Assembly (NCBI GenBank): GCA_016871015.1
Contig: VFZX01000019.1
Span: 1 to 43,684, forward strand
Length of the DNA: 43,684 nt
Reading direction: 5' to 3'
From: Acidobacteriota bacterium
GTDB taxonomy: Bacteria; Acidobacteriota; Terriglobia; Bryobacterales; Bryobacteraceae
Shown here: piece after piece, positions 3,082 to 8,837 of the stretch
Layout: each line of letters starts with the position of its first letter
Position numbering within the stretch: the stretch's first letter is position 1
Program-made: the position numbers and the translations under genes
The notes under the pieces: generated by a model
What the model saw: the letters and a program-made list of their open reading frames with translations, nothing else
Database searches by the model: none
What the model was told of the DNA's origin: nothing

Positions 3082-3969
3082 TTAAGCCGGCAGCTTCATG
3101 ATCTTGCGCGCGTTGTCCTGGAAAATCTTGCGCTGGATATCCGGCGCGGCCAGCTTGCGGATGGTGGCGATCTGCTGCGAGCCGCTGCACTTCTCCGTCA
3201 TTCCGATCTTGTCGTTGCAGTCGGATCCGTAGATCAGCTTGTCCTGATGGCGGACGATAAATCCGCGCGCGTGATCCTCGTCGCGGCGCATTGCGTTGAG
3301 CCCGGACCCGGCGGACAGATCAGCGAACATGTTCGGATAGTCAGCGAGGAAGCGGTCCGTCCATCCGCCCAGATTCACTTTCCACCGTGGGTAGAGCACT
3401 TCCTGAATGTGGCCCCCGTCGATATTGGCCCAAAAAGTTTGCGCGTGGCCGATAAAGTTGACGGTTGGATACTTCTTGAGGACCTTCCAGAACTGGTCGT
3501 AGTTCACGTTGTAGCGCTCGTACTGGAAGTGAAGAAGGATCGGCACGCGGTAGTCGCGCGCGACCTCGCAGATCAAATCCATCGGTGACGAGCCTGACGC
3601 ATCAACGAAGAACTTCTGCTCGCCGATGCCGATCGCGCCCTGCTTCAAGTACCTCTCGAGCACTTCGCGCGCATTCGGCAGGTACGGCACTTCATTCGCG
3701 AAGTAGGAGTACTTTTCCGGGAACTGCTTCACGACATTCAAACACGAGTCGTTGCCGAACGCCTGAGCCTCGAGTCCATACATCCGCCCGGCGGGGAGCA
3801 GGACCGTATGGGCGATCCCCATCACGTCCTGATGATGGAGCATCTCGGCATCGGTGCGGAATGAGTAGTTCGTATGCTGATGGATATCGATGATCGGAAT
3901 CGGAGGCTGGGCGGGCGCCATGGCGGCCGCGGCCGTCCCGAGGAAGGCGCGGCGTGTGATGTCTCGCAT
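3082..3969 (-). CDS. Tat-exported amidohydrolase (amidohydrolase_2 / TIM-barrel metal-dependent hydrolase)
   Basis: A 295-residue protein. It begins with a Tat-like leader (RDITRRAFLG followed by an Ala-rich stretch) and then the metal-binding DIHQH at residues 28-32, whose two histidines start the barrel. Later metal or catalytic residues are visible in FIGHAQTFW and YGSDCND. The family (PF04909) hydrolyses or decarboxylates diverse small molecules; the substrate here is unknown. I start at the ATG at 3969 because it opens the Tat motif; an ATG at 3981 would add four residues. The open frame continues far upstream, but that part is antisense to the DUF3604 gene and is not coding. The gene is transcribed away from DUF3604 across a 15-base gap and is followed after one base by the heme lipoprotein. 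Confidence 0.85.
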   Translation of the reverse strand: MRDITRRAFLGTAAAAMAPAQPPIPIIDIHQHTNYSFRTDAEMLHHQDVMGIAHTVLLPAGRMYGLEAQAFGNDSCLNVVKQFPEKYSYFANEVPYLPNAREVLERYLKQGAIGIGEQKFFVDASGSSPMDLICEVARDYRVPILLHFQYERYNVNYDQFWKVLKKYPTVNFIGHAQTFWANIDGGHIQEVLYPRWKVNLGGWTDRFLADYPNMFADLSAGSGLNAMRRDEDHARGFIVRHQDKLIYGSDCNDKIGMTEKCSGSQQIATIRKLAAPDIQRKIFQDNARKIMKLPA

Positions 3970-3975
3970 AAGGGG
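3970..3975 (+). promoter_or_regulatory. Ribosome-binding site of the DUF3604 gene
   Basis: AAGGGG lies nine bases before the ATG at 3985 and decides that start over the next in-frame ATG at 3994 and over the longer upstream frame from 3874. A TACAAT hexamer (3981-3986) overlaps the start codon, which is too close to serve as a promoter for this gene. Confidence 0.5.
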
Positions 3976-3984
3976 CATCATACA

Positions 3985-6309
3985 ATGAACCCGATGCGAG
4001 TTCTTTCCTGCCTGCTCCTGACGTTGGCCGCCTGGAGCCAGACCGCGGCGCCGCGCTACCAGCCGGGAGCCTACTTTCCGCCCGGATTTCCGCTGCACGG
4101 CACGATCCGGCTGCTGTCGGCTCCGGTGGCCGAGATGGGACAACGGACACGGGTCCGCATCGAGTACACGATCGGAGATCTCGCGGTCGAGCCCGGCATG
4201 GAGATCGAGATCTGGAAGCACTTCACCAGCGACGCCGAGGAGGTGCAGGTAACGGATCCCAACGCTCCGGCTCACTTCTCGGCGCAGGTGATGGCCGCTG
4301 GGGTGAAGACGGCGCCGGTCAGCTACTCCAACTGGCTCCAGCGGAACTCCCCGGCGGTGTTTCCATACCGCAAGGCCGCTGGTCTTCGCGTGGACTCCGG
4401 ACGGCTCGCGGCGGGCGTCAAAGTTGTGTTCGACATCGGCGGAGCCCAGGGCGTCCGCATGCAGTACTACGAGGAGAACCTGTTCAATTTGCGCATCGCG
4501 ATTACGAAGAACGGCTTGCCCGTGGGCTACGCGGGAGATGCGATCCTGCGGATCACCGGAGGCCCGCTCGCCAAGCTTCGCGTTCAGGCGCCGTCGGTGG
4601 TCAAGCGTGGCGAGCCGTTTACCGTGGAAGCCGTCCCGATGGACGAATGGGTGTCGCTTGCAAAGAATCCCACGGGTCTGGACATCCGTATCGAGGCCCC
4701 GGGGCTCGAAGGCGGAACGTTTCGCTATGAGCCCGCGCTGCAGCATTACGTGGCGCGTGCTGTGAAGGCCTCGCAGGAAGGCGTGCTGCGGATCGAGGCC
4801 AGGACCGCGGATGGACGGTATCGCGGGACGAGCAATCCGGTGTGGGTGGAAGCGGATCCGCTGCGCCGCGCCTGGTACGGTGAGCTGCACCAGCACACCT
4901 ATCTCGCCGACGGACGTGGCGTTTTCGAGGAGCTTTACCAATACGGACGCCGCGTGGGCCTGCTCGACTTCGGATCCGTGACGCCGCACCACATGCCGCT
5001 GAGTGTCAGTGGTCCGCAGTTGCTGATGAAGCAGCAGTATCCGCGCGAGAATTGGCCGGAGCTCCAGCGGGTCACCAAGCTGTACAACGGCTGGGAAGGA
5101 TTCGTCTCGCTGCTGGGATACGAGTACAGCGTCGGTACCCAGGCGGGTGGCCACCACAACGTGTTCTACAACGCGGACCAGGCGCGCAGCGCGATGCAGT
5201 TGGATCCGGCGAATCCGATGGCGCCGATCGGGAAGATGCTCGAAACGGTGAAGCTGGCCAAGGTTCCGACGCTGGTGATTCCGCACATTGGCGGAGCGCC
5301 ACCGGACTGGTCGCACCCCACCGACCAGCGGATCGAACGGCTGTTCGAGATCGCTTCGGTGCACGGCGTTTTTGAAGAATCCTGGCAGAAGCACCTGGAG
5401 CAGGGGATCCGGCTCGGCGCGATCGCGGCGGGCGACACGCATACCACCTCCATGGGCATCGCCTATCCGGGTTTGATCTACGTGAACTCGAATGGGCTGG
5501 CCGGAGTCTGGTCATATGGGAAGAACCGGCGCGATATTTGGGATGGACTCTACGAGCGCCGGACCTTCGCGGCCACCGGGAATCAGCGGATGCTGATGAG
5601 CTTCTCGGTCAACGGCGAGCCGATGGGAGGCGAGATTCCCGGCGCGATGTTCCGCGACGCGCGTGTTGAAGCCAGGATCTCCGGCACGTCGCCCCTGGTG
5701 CGTGTGGAGCTGGTGAAGAACAACCGCGTGGTCCACTCGATTCATCCGGCGCGTGCAACGGCGGGATCGGTGGCGCGGATCGTATGGGGGGACAATCTCT
5801 ATCAGCGGCGGGCGGCGATCGGATTGCGGCAAGGCTCAATGCGCGCCACCCAGGGCCGGCTGCGGCTGCTGCGGACCGTGAACCTCGACCAGGGGTTCGA
5901 GATGGTTGAGGCGGCGGGTGGCGGCATCACGTGGCGGACGGCGGCAGTGTCTGGGGACCGGGACGGCGTTCTCGTCGACCTCTCAGAGGCGGCGGGAGAG
6001 ATCGAGTTCAAGCTCGACGACGCCGACACGATGGGCGTGATGGAGACGCGGATCCCGGTAGAGGCGCTGAAGCGCGATGGCGCGTTCGCGTGGTCGAAGC
6101 AGGGCAAGGCGGCGCACCCATACATGGCAAAAATGGGCGTCGCACCCCGGTTCTTCGTTGAGAGCGAAATGGTGGTGGACGCGGGTCCGATGGACACGGC
6201 GTTTTCGTATCAGCACCGGGAACCGTTGCGGTCCGGAGACTACTTCTACCTCCGCGTGGAACAGTTGGACACGAACAAGGCGTGGTCCAGCCCGGTGTGG
6301 ATCAACTAG
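3985..6309 (+). CDS. Secreted DUF3604 metalloprotein (PHP-like)
   Basis: A 774-residue protein with a Sec-type signal peptide (MRVLSCLLLTLAAWSQT). The N-terminal half, to about residue 290, looks like beta-sandwich material. From about 295 comes a DUF3604 domain: WYGELHQHT with histidines at 302 and 304, VTPHHMP, LLGYEYS, VIPHIGG and AGDTHT near 482-487 are metal-site signatures related to the PHP phosphoesterase superfamily. Family members are annotated only as probable metal-dependent hydrolases; no substrate is established. The gene is divergent from the amidohydrolase. Its last eight bases overlap the 3' end of the response-regulator gene on the other strand, a tail-to-tail arrangement with no obvious terminator. 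Confidence 0.83.
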   Translation: MNPMRVLSCLLLTLAAWSQTAAPRYQPGAYFPPGFPLHGTIRLLSAPVAEMGQRTRVRIEYTIGDLAVEPGMEIEIWKHFTSDAEEVQVTDPNAPAHFSAQVMAAGVKTAPVSYSNWLQRNSPAVFPYRKAAGLRVDSGRLAAGVKVVFDIGGAQGVRMQYYEENLFNLRIAITKNGLPVGYAGDAILRITGGPLAKLRVQAPSVVKRGEPFTVEAVPMDEWVSLAKNPTGLDIRIEAPGLEGGTFRYEPALQHYVARAVKASQEGVLRIEARTADGRYRGTSNPVWVEADPLRRAWYGELHQHTYLADGRGVFEELYQYGRRVGLLDFGSVTPHHMPLSVSGPQLLMKQQYPRENWPELQRVTKLYNGWEGFVSLLGYEYSVGTQAGGHHNVFYNADQARSAMQLDPANPMAPIGKMLETVKLAKVPTLVIPHIGGAPPDWSHPTDQRIERLFEIASVHGVFEESWQKHLEQGIRLGAIAAGDTHTTSMGIAYPGLIYVNSNGLAGVWSYGKNRRDIWDGLYERRTFAATGNQRMLMSFSVNGEPMGGEIPGAMFRDARVEARISGTSPLVRVELVKNNRVVHSIHPARATAGSVARIVWGDNLYQRRAAIGLRQGSMRATQGRLRLLRTVNLDQGFEMVEAAGGGITWRTAAVSGDRDGVLVDLSEAAGEIEFKLDDADTMGVMETRIPVEALKRDGAFAWSKQGKAAHPYMAKMGVAPRFFVESEMVVDAGPMDTAFSYQHREPLRSGDYFYLRVEQLDTNKAWSSPVWIN

Positions 6310-7003
6310 GGTTGGCCAGGAACTTGTAGCCGACCCCGCGCACGGTCAGCAGATGCCTGGGCTGCGCCGGCTCGTCCTCCACGTGCTTGCGCAGACGCGC
6401 GATGAAGTTGTCGATCGCGCGGGTGTCGGTGTCCTCGTGGACCTCCCAGACGTCGTCGAGGATCATCTTCCGTGAGATCACGGTCCCCTGCCGCTGGATC
6501 AGGTAGCGCAGAAGATTTGCCTCCATGAGCGTCAGCCGCAGGATCCGGCCGTTCGCGGTGATCTCCAGGTTGTCGTAGTCAAACCGCTTGTTCCCGAACT
6601 CGAAAACGCCCGCCTTGGAGACCGGCTGCTGCCAGGGTCCGCGGCGGAGCAGGCTGCGGACGCGGGCCAGCAGGATCGCCAGCACGAACGGCTTGGCGAG
6701 GTAGTCGTCCGCACCCGCCTCGAATCCCTGGAGCACGTCCTCGGGACGGCTGCGCGCGGTCAACATCAGGATCGGCTGGAACCAGTTGTTTTGGCGTAGT
6801 TGAGACGCTACCGCGAAGCCGTCGATGCCTGGCAGCATGACGTCGAGCACGAGCAGGTCGAACGGCGGGCTGGCGGCCTGAATCGCCTGGACGCCCGCTT
6901 CGCCGGTCTCCGCCACCTCCGCCTGGTGCCCCTCGAGCTCGAGATTGAACCGCACTCCTTCGGCGATGTGGGCTTCGTCCTCGATGATCAGGATCCGGCT
7001 CAT
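6302..7003 (-). CDS. OmpR/PhoB-family response regulator
   Basis: A 233-residue two-domain regulator. The receiver domain (1-120) has the acidic pocket E8/D9, phospho-acceptor D54 in LLVLDVMLPG, T82 and K104 in the conserved order. The C-terminal winged-helix domain (about 128-230) ends with the family signature around LLTVRGVGYKF. It should bind tandem direct repeats as a phosphorylated dimer, as OmpR/PhoB proteins do. Its ATG overlaps the kinase stop by four bases (ATGA), so the two are translationally coupled, and the pair follows a fatty-acid desaturase gene. The promoter of that desaturase contains two TTGCAAT half-sites with an 11-base period, a plausible target (inference). Confidence 0.95.
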   Translation of the reverse strand: MSRILIIEDEAHIAEGVRFNLELEGHQAEVAETGEAGVQAIQAASPPFDLLVLDVMLPGIDGFAVASQLRQNNWFQPILMLTARSRPEDVLQGFEAGADDYLAKPFVLAILLARVRSLLRRGPWQQPVSKAGVFEFGNKRFDYDNLEITANGRILRLTLMEANLLRYLIQRQGTVISRKMILDDVWEVHEDTDTRAIDNFIARLRKHVEDEPAQPRHLLTVRGVGYKFLANPS

Positions 7004-7908
7004 GACGCCTCCGGAGCGGCGGGGAGCTGCAGGGTGAACGTGCTGCCCTGCCCGTGTCCGCCGCTTTCGGCGAACACCCGGCCGCCGTGGCGTTTGGCTA
7101 CCGAGTTCACGATGTAAAGCCCCAGGCCCATTCCTTTCACGCGTCCGGCGACGGCCCCCGGGATCCGGTAGAAGCGGCGGAAGATGCGTCTGAGCTCGAC
7201 CGGCTCGATGCCGATACCGTGGTCGGCGACGCGGACCTGAAGTGTGCGATCCTCCCCGTGCACAAGCTCCACCAGGACATCCACAGTCCCGGCGGAGTAC
7301 TTCACCGCGTTGTCGACGAGATTGGTAATCGCGGTCCGCAATTCGTGAACATCGCCCATGACGATTGCGGATCCTTCAACTGCCTGCCGGTACTTCAGGC
7401 TTTCAGGAGAAAGGCGATGGCGGGTGCGTGCAAGGTCGAGACACTCGCGGACGGTTTCCGCCAGATCCACCGCTGAGCCACGGATCCGGCGGTTGGAGCT
7501 GCCGCTCTGCCCGGCGCGCAACACCTGGTCGATGGTGTGCAGCAGCCGGTCGCAGTCCTCGATCATCACCTGGCGGAATTCGCGCTGTCTGGATTCTTCG
7601 AGCTCCCGCGCCTGCATTGTCTCGAGGTAGAGGCGGATCGACGCCACGGGCGTCTTCAATTCGTGGGTCACGGCGTTGATGAACGCGTTGTGCTGTTCGT
7701 TGCGCCGGACTTCACGCACGAGGAAGATCGTGTTCAAGACGGCTCCGGTGATGATCAGGCCAAAGAACAGGACGCCGAGAATCAGCAGAAGTCCCGTGCG
7801 CCAATTGAGCAGAATCCAGCCGACATTGAGCGCGATCGCAGCCGCAACAACAACCGCACCGAGGGCGATGAACCACGCGCTCGATTTGGAGTGGCCGGAC
7901 CAGACCAT
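7000..7908 (-). CDS. Membrane histidine kinase without an external sensor domain
   Basis: A 302-residue kinase. Two hydrophobic helices at about residues 11-34 and 40-64 are joined by only about five residues (NWRTG), so there is essentially no periplasmic domain. The HisKA domain follows directly, with phosphorylated H82 in NAVTHELKTP; no HAMP, PAS or GAF domain is seen. The C-terminal ATPase has the N box (NLVDNAVKY), G1 (DHGIGI) and G2 (GMGLGLYIV). The design suggests sensing within the membrane or at its surface, like intramembrane-sensing kinases. The gene starts 31 bases after the desaturase stop and overlaps the regulator by four bases, pointing to a desaturase-kinase-regulator transcript. 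No clear ribosome-binding site precedes the ATG. Confidence 0.94.
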   Translation of the reverse strand: MVWSGHSKSSAWFIALGAVVVAAAIALNVGWILLNWRTGLLLILGVLFFGLIITGAVLNTIFLVREVRRNEQHNAFINAVTHELKTPVASIRLYLETMQARELEESRQREFRQVMIEDCDRLLHTIDQVLRAGQSGSSNRRIRGSAVDLAETVRECLDLARTRHRLSPESLKYRQAVEGSAIVMGDVHELRTAITNLVDNAVKYSAGTVDVLVELVHGEDRTLQVRVADHGIGIEPVELRRIFRRFYRIPGAVAGRVKGMGLGLYIVNSVAKRHGGRVFAESGGHGQGSTFTLQLPAAPEAS

Positions 7909-7939
7909 ACAACTAACAGTATGGCCCCAGGATCAGCCG

Positions 7940-8773
7940 CTATGCGGCGATGCTGTGGCGGTAGGGCTCGTCGGCCGATGCCACCTTGACCTTGCGTGCG
8001 ACGCCGAGCTTCTCAAGCAGCCAGATCTGGTAGAAGGTCAGATCCACTTCGTACCAGGCGAGCCCGTGGCGGGCCGACAGCGGATGCGCGTGATGGTTGT
8101 TGTGCCAGCCTTCGCCAAAGGTCAGCAGAGCGACCCACCAGTTGTTGCGGGACAGGTCGCGGGTCTGGAACCTCCGCGATCCCCACATGTGGGTTGCGGA
8201 GTTGACGAGCCAGGTGGAATGCTGGCCCACGGTCACACGGAAGCAGACTCCCCACAGGACGTACGGGAGCCCGCCGAACGCATAAAGCAGCACGCCGGAG
8301 ACCGCCAGCGGCACGTAGTGATACGTGTTCAGCCAGTGGTAGTAGCGGTGCTTGGCCAAATCGGGTACGTAGGGGGCGAACCGGCGGGTGTCGTTGTGGT
8401 CCGCGGTGCCAAGGATCATCCACCACAGGTGCGCCCACCAGGCTCCGTGCTTGGGGCTGTGCGGATCCCCTTCCTTATCCGAATTCTGGTGGTGGATCCG
8501 GTGGGTGCCTGCCCACGAAAGCGGACCTCCTTCGAGGGCCATCGACCCGCAGGTGGCGAGGAAGTATTCCAGCCCCCTCGGGACAATGTAGCCCCGATGC
8601 GTCAATAGCCTGTGGTATCCCATTCCGATACCCCAACTAATCGCCATCCAATAGATAATTCCCGCAGCCAGGATGGCTCCCCAATCGAAGTAAAAGAGGG
8701 CCGCCACCGCGCCGATGTGAAAGACGCTAAAGGCGATCGCCGTAGACCAGTTGATCTCAGTAGGCTTTGTCAA
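7940..8773 (-). CDS. Acyl-CoA/acyl-lipid delta-9-type fatty-acid desaturase
   Basis: A 277-residue integral-membrane di-iron desaturase that would place a double bond in a saturated acyl chain using oxygen and an electron donor. The three histidine boxes are intact: HRLLTH (54-59), HRIHH (91-95) and HNNHH (224-228). Hydrophobic segments lie before box 1 and between boxes 2 and 3, as usual. I start at TTG 8773 because a strong GGAGAG sits seven bases upstream; the open frame runs on to 9019 but that part crosses the promoter and carA. Length fits bacterial delta-9 desaturases. Downstream lie a histidine kinase and a response regulator on the same strand, and the promoter contains a regulator-like repeat, so membrane-state control is likely (inference). 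Confidence 0.93.
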   Translation of the reverse strand: MTKPTEINWSTAIAFSVFHIGAVAALFYFDWGAILAAGIIYWMAISWGIGMGYHRLLTHRGYIVPRGLEYFLATCGSMALEGGPLSWAGTHRIHHQNSDKEGDPHSPKHGAWWAHLWWMILGTADHNDTRRFAPYVPDLAKHRYYHWLNTYHYVPLAVSGVLLYAFGGLPYVLWGVCFRVTVGQHSTWLVNSATHMWGSRRFQTRDLSRNNWWVALLTFGEGWHNNHHAHPLSARHGLAWYEVDLTFYQIWLLEKLGVARKVKVASADEPYRHSIAA

Positions 8774-8780
8774 AGAAGAT

Positions 8781-8786
8781 CTCTCC
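8781..8786 (-). promoter_or_regulatory. Ribosome-binding site fixing the TTG start of the desaturase
   Basis: GGAGAG on the minus strand, seven bases before the TTG at 8773. No in-frame ATG or GTG gives a better fit, and family alignments would begin close to this point. Confidence 0.65.
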
Positions 8787-8807
8787 ACGTCAACCTTACC
8801 AGGGGAA

Positions 8808-8835
8808 ATTGTATGGAATTGCAATAGTTTTGCAA
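8808..8835 (-). promoter_or_regulatory. Candidate sigma70 promoter of the desaturase
   Basis: On the minus strand TTGCAA (8835-8830) and TACAAT (8813-8808) are separated by 16 bases, giving reasonable -35 and -10 boxes. Transcription would start near 8801, leaving a leader of about 28 bases that contains the GGAGAG site. The -35 box lies inside the repeated TTGCAAT element, so a regulator bound there would directly meet RNA polymerase. Confidence 0.5.
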
Positions 8836-8837
8836 TT
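8817..8837. repeat. 11-bp-phased direct repeat / inverted repeat in the desaturase promoter
   Basis: Two identical copies of TTGCAAT (8819-8825 and 8830-8836) are separated by AGTT, giving an 11-base period, one DNA turn. Because the half-site is nearly self-complementary, the same bases also form the inverted repeat AATTGCAA (8817-8824) with TTGCAATT (8830-8837). Seven-base half-sites with four-base A/T-rich spacers are the layout of PhoB-family boxes. The element sits just upstream of the desaturase -10 box and lies 76 bases before the carA start codon. Confidence 0.6.

Follow-up and report, generated by a model that had tools for sequence, protein, structure and literature searches.

In Bacillus subtilis, the histidine kinase DesK belongs to the HisKA_3 family and the response regulator DesR to the NarL/LuxR type. 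According to one account of this system (PMC11237406), the desaturase gene is followed by the kinase and regulator genes, whose products act on the desaturase promoter, and the five transmembrane (TM) helices of DesK serve for sensing within a negative feedback. A gene row of similar outline lies in the stretch of DNA analyzed here, 43,684 nucleotides from an Acidobacteriota bacterium of the family Bryobacteraceae (contig VFZX01000019.1; this whole stretch is called the window below), in which a gene for an acyl desaturase (des) is followed by genes for a two-helix histidine kinase and an OmpR/PhoB-type response regulator. The row shares its gene order with DesKR, and we propose sensing by TM helices and negative feedback for it as well, but the HisKA_3 family, the five helices, and the NarL type are not found in it. 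The first-pass annotation of the window had already drawn this contrast of families, which Pfam bears out for the window's proteins (HisKA and Trans_reg_C), the DesKR side being general knowledge. Being built from different families, the row appears to be an independently built counterpart of DesKR that arose by convergence.

Acidobacteriota are among the commonest bacteria in soil. Among the matches listed for them in our literature search, none dealt with the control of membrane unsaturation in this phylum, and no published description of this cassette was found among the matches listed from the open literature, with subscription papers mostly outside. Other systems resemble the row in part. 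In Bacillus cereus, the two-component pair CasK/R is reportedly needed for optimal unsaturation in the cold. To our knowledge, Hik33 of Synechocystis is not encoded in a des operon; its partner Rre26 and RpaB are the same protein. Hik33 is also a two-helix kinase, thought to sense membrane rigidification and to act on cold-inducible targets, but it differs by its HAMP, leucine zipper, and PAS parts and by the large number of these targets (PMC3264485). The HLR1 box of RpaB shares a TTACA core and the class of its regulator with the box described below, yet its period is 10 nt (8+2) instead of 11, and the window's proteins score 173.8 bits with the RpaB model (cut-off 330) and 106.6 bits with the NblS model (cut-off 1000). 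PhoB of E. coli is of the same regulator family and likewise uses a direct-repeat box that replaces the −35 element, but it differs in kinase input and box sequence, and the PhoB model TIGR02154 gives 174 bits here against a cut-off of 296.2.

The kinase and regulator are conserved with the desaturase

In the window, des (7940–8773, 277 amino acids from a TTG start), the kinase gene (7000–7908), and the regulator gene (6302–7003) follow each other in this order on the minus strand, with 31 nt between the des stop and the kinase start and an overlap of 4 nt between kinase and regulator; gene calls and Pfam agree with the row of three as first annotated. The des product is a membrane-bound acyl desaturase of the SCD1/DesA type by its FA_desaturase domain (3.7e-19) and the three His boxes read in its translation (HRLLTH, HRIHH, and HNNHH), and its nearest solved structures are the acyl-CoA desaturases 4ymk (E = 2.2e-27) and 4zyo (1.9e-26). 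The kinase has two TM helices followed by HisKA (PF00512, 2.8e-13) and HATPase_c (7.2e-26), with no further domain found. Receiver (Response_reg, 1.5e-24) and winged-helix Trans_reg_C domain (PF00486, 1.7e-22) together place the regulator in the OmpR/PhoB family, where its nearest solved relatives are RegX3 (2oqr, the nearest), RpaA, and MtrA. Among the best 25 NCBIfam models, no cut-off was passed by kinase, regulator, or desaturase (the DesA model gave 83.4 bits for des against a cut-off of 400).

Conservation was assessed in a near set of 61 genomes (the window's own and 60 relatives) and in a phylum sample of 396 acidobacterial genomes (L and G numbers below are our handles for loci and genomes). 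A close desaturase (>250 bits) was present in 41 genomes of the near set, an ortholog of the kinase (E ≤ 1e-60) in 39, and both in 38, leaving one genome with the kinase only, three with the desaturase only, and 19 with neither. The phylum sample, with desaturases first counted down to about 234 bits, gave 98 genomes with kinase and close desaturase, 3 with the kinase only, 15 with the desaturase only, and 280 with neither (Fisher's test: 3e-72, kinship ignored); when all 181 genomes with a desaturase (E ≤ 1e-40) are counted, this table becomes 98/3/83/212. At the thresholds used there was a single kinase match per genome (the phylum scan scored the five best candidates), and in the window's genome the kinase scored 655 bits versus 113 bits for the next kinase among 31 matches.

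A direct tandem (gap ≤300 nt) was seen in 62 of the 98 genomes with kinase and desaturase and spans 35 genera and 11 families, while 27 others have the genes on the same contig and strand within 8 kb and 9 have them apart. Besides the window itself, kinase and regulator come next after des on the same strand in 14 of the 46 close-desaturase loci fetched from the near set (L032–L077). Two of these loci are fragments, and L047, L057, and L077 stop at or just behind des and are therefore uninformative on the pair; L077 is a cut close desaturase, though it was labelled a paralog in one comparison (one of seven such rows). L054 has 781 nt between des and the pair. The first-pass annotation had made its case depend on finding the pair beside the desaturase in relatives, and these counts sustain it. 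Where the kinase is not beside des, as in 24 near-set genomes, the regulator follows the kinase in 19 of the 20 cases fetched. A kinase ortholog without a regulator directly behind it was seen in L137 (G057). Across a tree of 72 kinases, the state of being linked or unlinked switches about 12 times, with at least 3 of these switches forced by well-supported branches.

A scan of named records, limited to the best 80 among 579 relatives and consisting almost wholly of records labelled acidobacterial, yielded 60 linked loci, 15 without a desaturase in the available stretch, and 5 with a cut desaturase or promoter that were excluded from the promoter count. On a crude gene map of these 80 loci, the recurrent neighbor of the pair is the desaturase. 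By crude calling of open reading frames (ORFs), no other gene recurs around the pair across genera except the two-gene cluster c12/c13 (near L038, L149, and L151), whose translations are by eye unlike a transporter or a peptide-resistance gene; clusters c14–c16 near the pair recur within one genus only. As shown by comparison of these genomes, the predicted kinase and regulator form one conserved pair, and many acidobacterial lineages have it together with a close acyl desaturase.

A direct repeat stands at a fixed distance from an extended −10 element

Upstream of des, the window carries a repeat at 8817–8837 with TTGCAAT on the plus strand at 8819 and 8830, i.e., with a period of 11 bp; on the minus strand, the putative regulator box TTGCA-N6-TTGCA spans 8820–8835. 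The entire repeat also reads as a perfect 8-5-8 inverted repeat. TTGCAAT occurs 6 times in the window, which is not unusual (the shuffle mean is 2.6, with 6 reached in 8 of 100 shuffles), so that the window by itself did not establish the site, but comparison with relatives did. Among 136 distinct desaturase upstream stretches, 105 count as linked, having the pair on the same strand no more than 4 kb away, and 102 of these 105 have TTRCA-N6-TTRCA at no more than one mismatch (78 exactly); before the removal of copies, the box was present in 111 of 114 linked promoters versus 3.0 expected from dinucleotide shuffles. The near-set promoters showed a common repeat, as did most of 40 distant loci, and des copies without an adjacent pair have the box in 22 of 27 cases. 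Its consensus is ATTACA-NAAST-MTTACA, and TTGCA in both half-sites is confined, among 123 sites, to the window and L032 and L033 of the same genus (G374 also has one such half-site). The 11-bp-phased repeat of the first-pass annotation is therefore real and conserved, whereas its TTGCAAT motif is this genus's variant of a wider core, TTACA-N6-TTACA. Two tandem boxes, 39 to 42 nt apart, precede des in L166 (G276), L171 (G109), and L187 (G256).

At these 123 sites, TA...T follows the second half-site at offset 21 in 94 and at offset 22 in 17, with a total of 8 at all other offsets from 8 to 29, and the fuller TG.TA...T does so at offset 21 in 82 and 22 in 13 (95 sites) and at no other offset in this range. 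The conserved promoter of the window is TGGTAAGGT at 8793–8801, an extended −10 element (TGG-TAAGGT, minus strand) whose hexamer begins 21 nt past the second half-site. If this hexamer is set by convention as −12 to −7, simple arithmetic puts the half-sites at −49 to −45 and −38 to −34 and their center at −41.5; transcription of des is predicted to start near 8786. Next to this −10, the sites show no conserved −35 hexamer. Activators of class II of the PhoB kind have their box at a fixed distance in place of the −35 element, and the promoter layout strongly suggests the same for this locus, with a box near −41.5 that would replace the −35. In G137, both des (L170) and an accD-like gene (L277) have TG.TA at offset 32, about one helical turn further. 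Two other readings of the region were rejected: a sigma-70 promoter of the form TTGCAA/16/TACAAT, since TACAAT is not conserved and TGnTAnnnT is, and an inverted repeat, since TTACA is not self-complementary and the direct repeat alone is conserved.

The box goes with the kinase and stands mostly at desaturases

Searching the 61 nearer genomes with the pattern TTRCANAASTNTTRCA gave 37 matches, 22 of them at desaturases by reading, against 8 for a reversed control pattern; across the 396 genomes, the box pattern had 126 matches spread over 101 genomes. Counted by presence of the kinase, the 101 kinase-bearing genomes hold 83 strict TTACA-TTACA boxes. A listed desaturase follows within 450 nt for 70 of these boxes, and 69 of the 101 genomes have an exact-pattern box in such a position. 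In the 295 genomes that lack the kinase there are 8 strict boxes, none at a listed desaturase, and none of the four that were read (L281–L284) stands at a desaturase. In 14 of the 15 desaturase-only genomes (G150 being too near a contig end), the box with its −10 layout is absent from all 17 desaturase promoters; two of them have a half-site pair with one mismatch, but without the central AAST and without the −10. Of the three near-set genomes with a close desaturase and no kinase, one has a box (G023) and two have none.

In the near set, G005, G006, G016, and G022 each have the box at their linked close desaturase, with the unlinked copy lacking it at one mismatch. Kinase-bearing G278 has no close desaturase, and its divergent desaturase (35% identity) is preceded by box and −10; the same holds for the second desaturase of kinase-bearing G057 (36% identity), the only one with both among 13 paralogous desaturases with readable upstream DNA (L078–L086 and L088–L091).

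Kinase-bearing genomes also have 13 strict boxes, out of the 83, that stand away from listed desaturases. Nine were read (G374:C18, two in G263:C11, and G256:C22 were left out), and one of them (L272) belongs to a divergent desaturase with the full layout, while the other eight have no −10 at offsets 20–23. The 20 stretches taken comprise 18 around boxes away from listed desaturases and 2 around desaturases (L285 and L291). Of the 18, a single stretch has TG.TA...T at offset 20–23 (L272, in front of the divergent desaturase of G278); L281, whose genome lacks the kinase, shows TA...T at 22 with no TG. The close desaturase of G374 (L285) has TG.TA...T at 21. Nearly all boxes with the −10 layout that were read stand at desaturases. 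A broad regulon was rejected, since boxes read away from desaturases mostly lack this layout, and that the pair would be a dedicated regulator of the desaturase is well supported on comparative grounds.

Exact boxes before an accD-like gene (L277; G137:C206:33983) and an acyl-CoA ligase-like gene (L278; G286:C13:8078), both named from translation, are possible extra targets in lipid metabolism. Exact TTACA-type boxes just before tyrosine recombinase-like genes (L284, L286, and L288) lack the −10 layout and are probably unrelated.

Anatomy of the kinase and of the regulator's recognition helix

In each of the 72 kinase orthologs examined, exactly two hydrophobic peaks precede the His box, and the whole N-terminal part before HELKTP is 75–89 residues long, which with two membrane helices leaves no room for a sensor domain. 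For the window kinase, Pfam gave no match to HAMP, PAS, or HisKA_3. Conserved residues of this part are N28 (56 of 72), W31 (71), G45 (72), G55 (72), N59 (56), and T60 (72). An AlphaFold model (21 sequences, mean pLDDT 74.7) has helices at 6–34 and 36–100, the latter being one unbroken helix that takes in the second membrane segment and H82; its pLDDT block means range from 57 to 81, and the single-chain model is of middling confidence. The kinase fits the intramembrane-sensing class as this is defined in PMC10581149. This refines the two-helix kinase of the first-pass annotation and makes its sensing idea more specific. Since no other sensor part was found and, in the model, the second helix runs unbroken into the phospho-accepting helix, the kinase may read the state of the membrane, with membrane order or cold as the candidate signal. 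In DesK, polar residues of the membrane helices carry the signal (PMC8301901), so N28 and N59 are of interest for signaling.

The recognition-helix stretch of the regulator is 92% conserved over 67 orthologs, the highest value among four parts of the protein that were measured. Other OmpR/PhoB-type dimers give strong grounds to expect that the regulator binds the box, whose two half-sites are separated by one helical turn. From the near set, the recognition helix seemed to have coevolved with the TTGCA variant; this idea failed in the wider set and was rejected.

A proposed circuit for membrane homeostasis and its alternatives

We consider it quite probable that the row encodes a dedicated homeostatic loop for membrane unsaturation. 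In such a loop, the kinase would read the physical state of the bilayer (thickness, order, or hydration) via its two helices, which is the weaker part of the proposal, and a stiffer membrane, as in the cold, would favor the kinase state that leads to phosphorylation of the regulator. The phosphorylated regulator on its box would then have des transcribed as a case of class II activation, and the double bonds made would fluidize the membrane and switch the kinase off. With des first in the row, putative co-transcription would raise kinase and regulator as well. With less assurance, we lean towards seeing in this pair a widespread, possibly ancestral, nearly single-target regulator of membrane order in Acidobacteriota, which would combine a minimal two-helix sensor of fewer than 90 residues, joined straight to the HisKA helix and evolved apart from DesK and Hik33, with a single near-invariant box of class II, kept by the desaturase even when the genes are unlinked and also present before divergent desaturases (G278 and G057). 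If this is true, few membrane-order sensors of the HisKA class might be smaller.

Several observations weigh against the proposed loop or its breadth. Three linked promoters (L154, L160, and L232) have no box at one mismatch, G334 has the kinase and no box at its desaturase, and no exact box is found at the desaturase of G263 (L291). The distant, unlinked G126 and G400 have degenerate boxes with one and two mismatches, though with the −10 in place, and in G016 the box of the unlinked copy deviates by two mismatches. G023, a genome that is 87% complete, has a box with no kinase found. With 13 strict boxes away from listed desaturases, the pair may have more than one target. The V-to-A change in the recognition helix that accompanies TTGCA in this genus is also found in L170, L174, and L183, which have boxes of the TTACA type. 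The idea of membrane sensing draws solely on the anatomy of the kinase, and intramembrane-sensing kinases also answer peptides, as GraS does (PMC10581149).

The most serious alternative is that the pair does control the desaturase via the box while its kinase senses a different envelope cue (a peptide, a solvent, acid pH, or a membrane protein as partner) and desaturation is one defence among others. There are known cases of two-helix, short-loop kinases that answer to cues of this sort (GraS, in the same source), and DesK itself was reported to be pH-responsive (PMC7465017). We nevertheless hold this alternative to be unlikely, because the pair's recurrent neighbor is the desaturase, no gene of the c12/c13 cluster reads by eye as a transporter or a peptide-resistance gene, and almost all boxes with the −10 layout that were read are at desaturases. 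Repression of des by the regulator, to be relieved by phosphorylation or dephosphorylation, seems improbable: A protein bound to the box, which covers the position of a −35 element, could block polymerase, but no −35 is conserved there, the distance between box and −10 is fixed as for a class II activator, and the −10 elements of des and of the accD-like gene in G137 both stand at offset 32, about a turn further away.

More doubtful still is that the box belongs to another transcription factor and that the pair just happens to be near the desaturase. TetR-type factors use inverted repeats, and the window's repeat can be read as a perfect one, yet the direct-repeat reading alone is conserved, no measured part of the regulator is as conserved as its recognition-helix stretch, and the layout was not found in the absence of the kinase and is kept in most cases of an unlinked pair. 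As for the repeat being a product of chance or a promoter feature (TTGCAA as −35 and TACAAT as −10) of one genome, a consensus scan does find TTGCAA/16/TACAAT and TTGCAAT is common enough in the window, but the footprint across 102 of 105 distinct promoters, or 111 of 114 versus 3.0 by shuffling, refutes this idea, and we give it next to no weight.

With its sensor, regulator, box, and target defined, the proposed loop is a concrete circuit that can be tested in cultured relatives. It would be a second two-component route to desaturase control, made from families other than those of DesKR, and would as such show recurring design parts, namely a helix-only sensor, the desaturase in first position, and few targets. 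A two-helix sensor is also simpler than the five-helix DesK for asking how a kinase reads the bilayer.

Neighboring genes and minor observations

The best start of des is the TTG at 8773, where L032 of the same genus has an ATG, and a probable Shine-Dalgarno motif, GGAGAG, was read from the sequence at 8781–8786 on the minus strand. Both carA and carB (the latter named from translation) diverge from the same intergenic stretch as des. At the other end of the row, the last 8 bp of the regulator gene (6302–6309) are shared with the end of a gene that runs towards it and matches DUF3604 (3874–6309).

The window's genome encodes a second desaturase that is 41% identical to the first (L080 of G000:C6, near locus positions 5048–5851, minus strand; also L002, 627–1457). 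A NarL-type regulator-like gene runs towards this desaturase gene and overlaps its end; on a crude ORF map, L081 of the same genus shows no such gene. Several desaturase paralogs of 35–40% identity (L078, L083–L085, and L088–L091) stand in another conserved gene row (clusters c5, c6, c10, and c11). Public records titled Nevskia soli (L204), Acidimicrobiia (L218), and Bifidobacterium breve (L242) also carry the kinase, and these assemblies are probably mislabelled.

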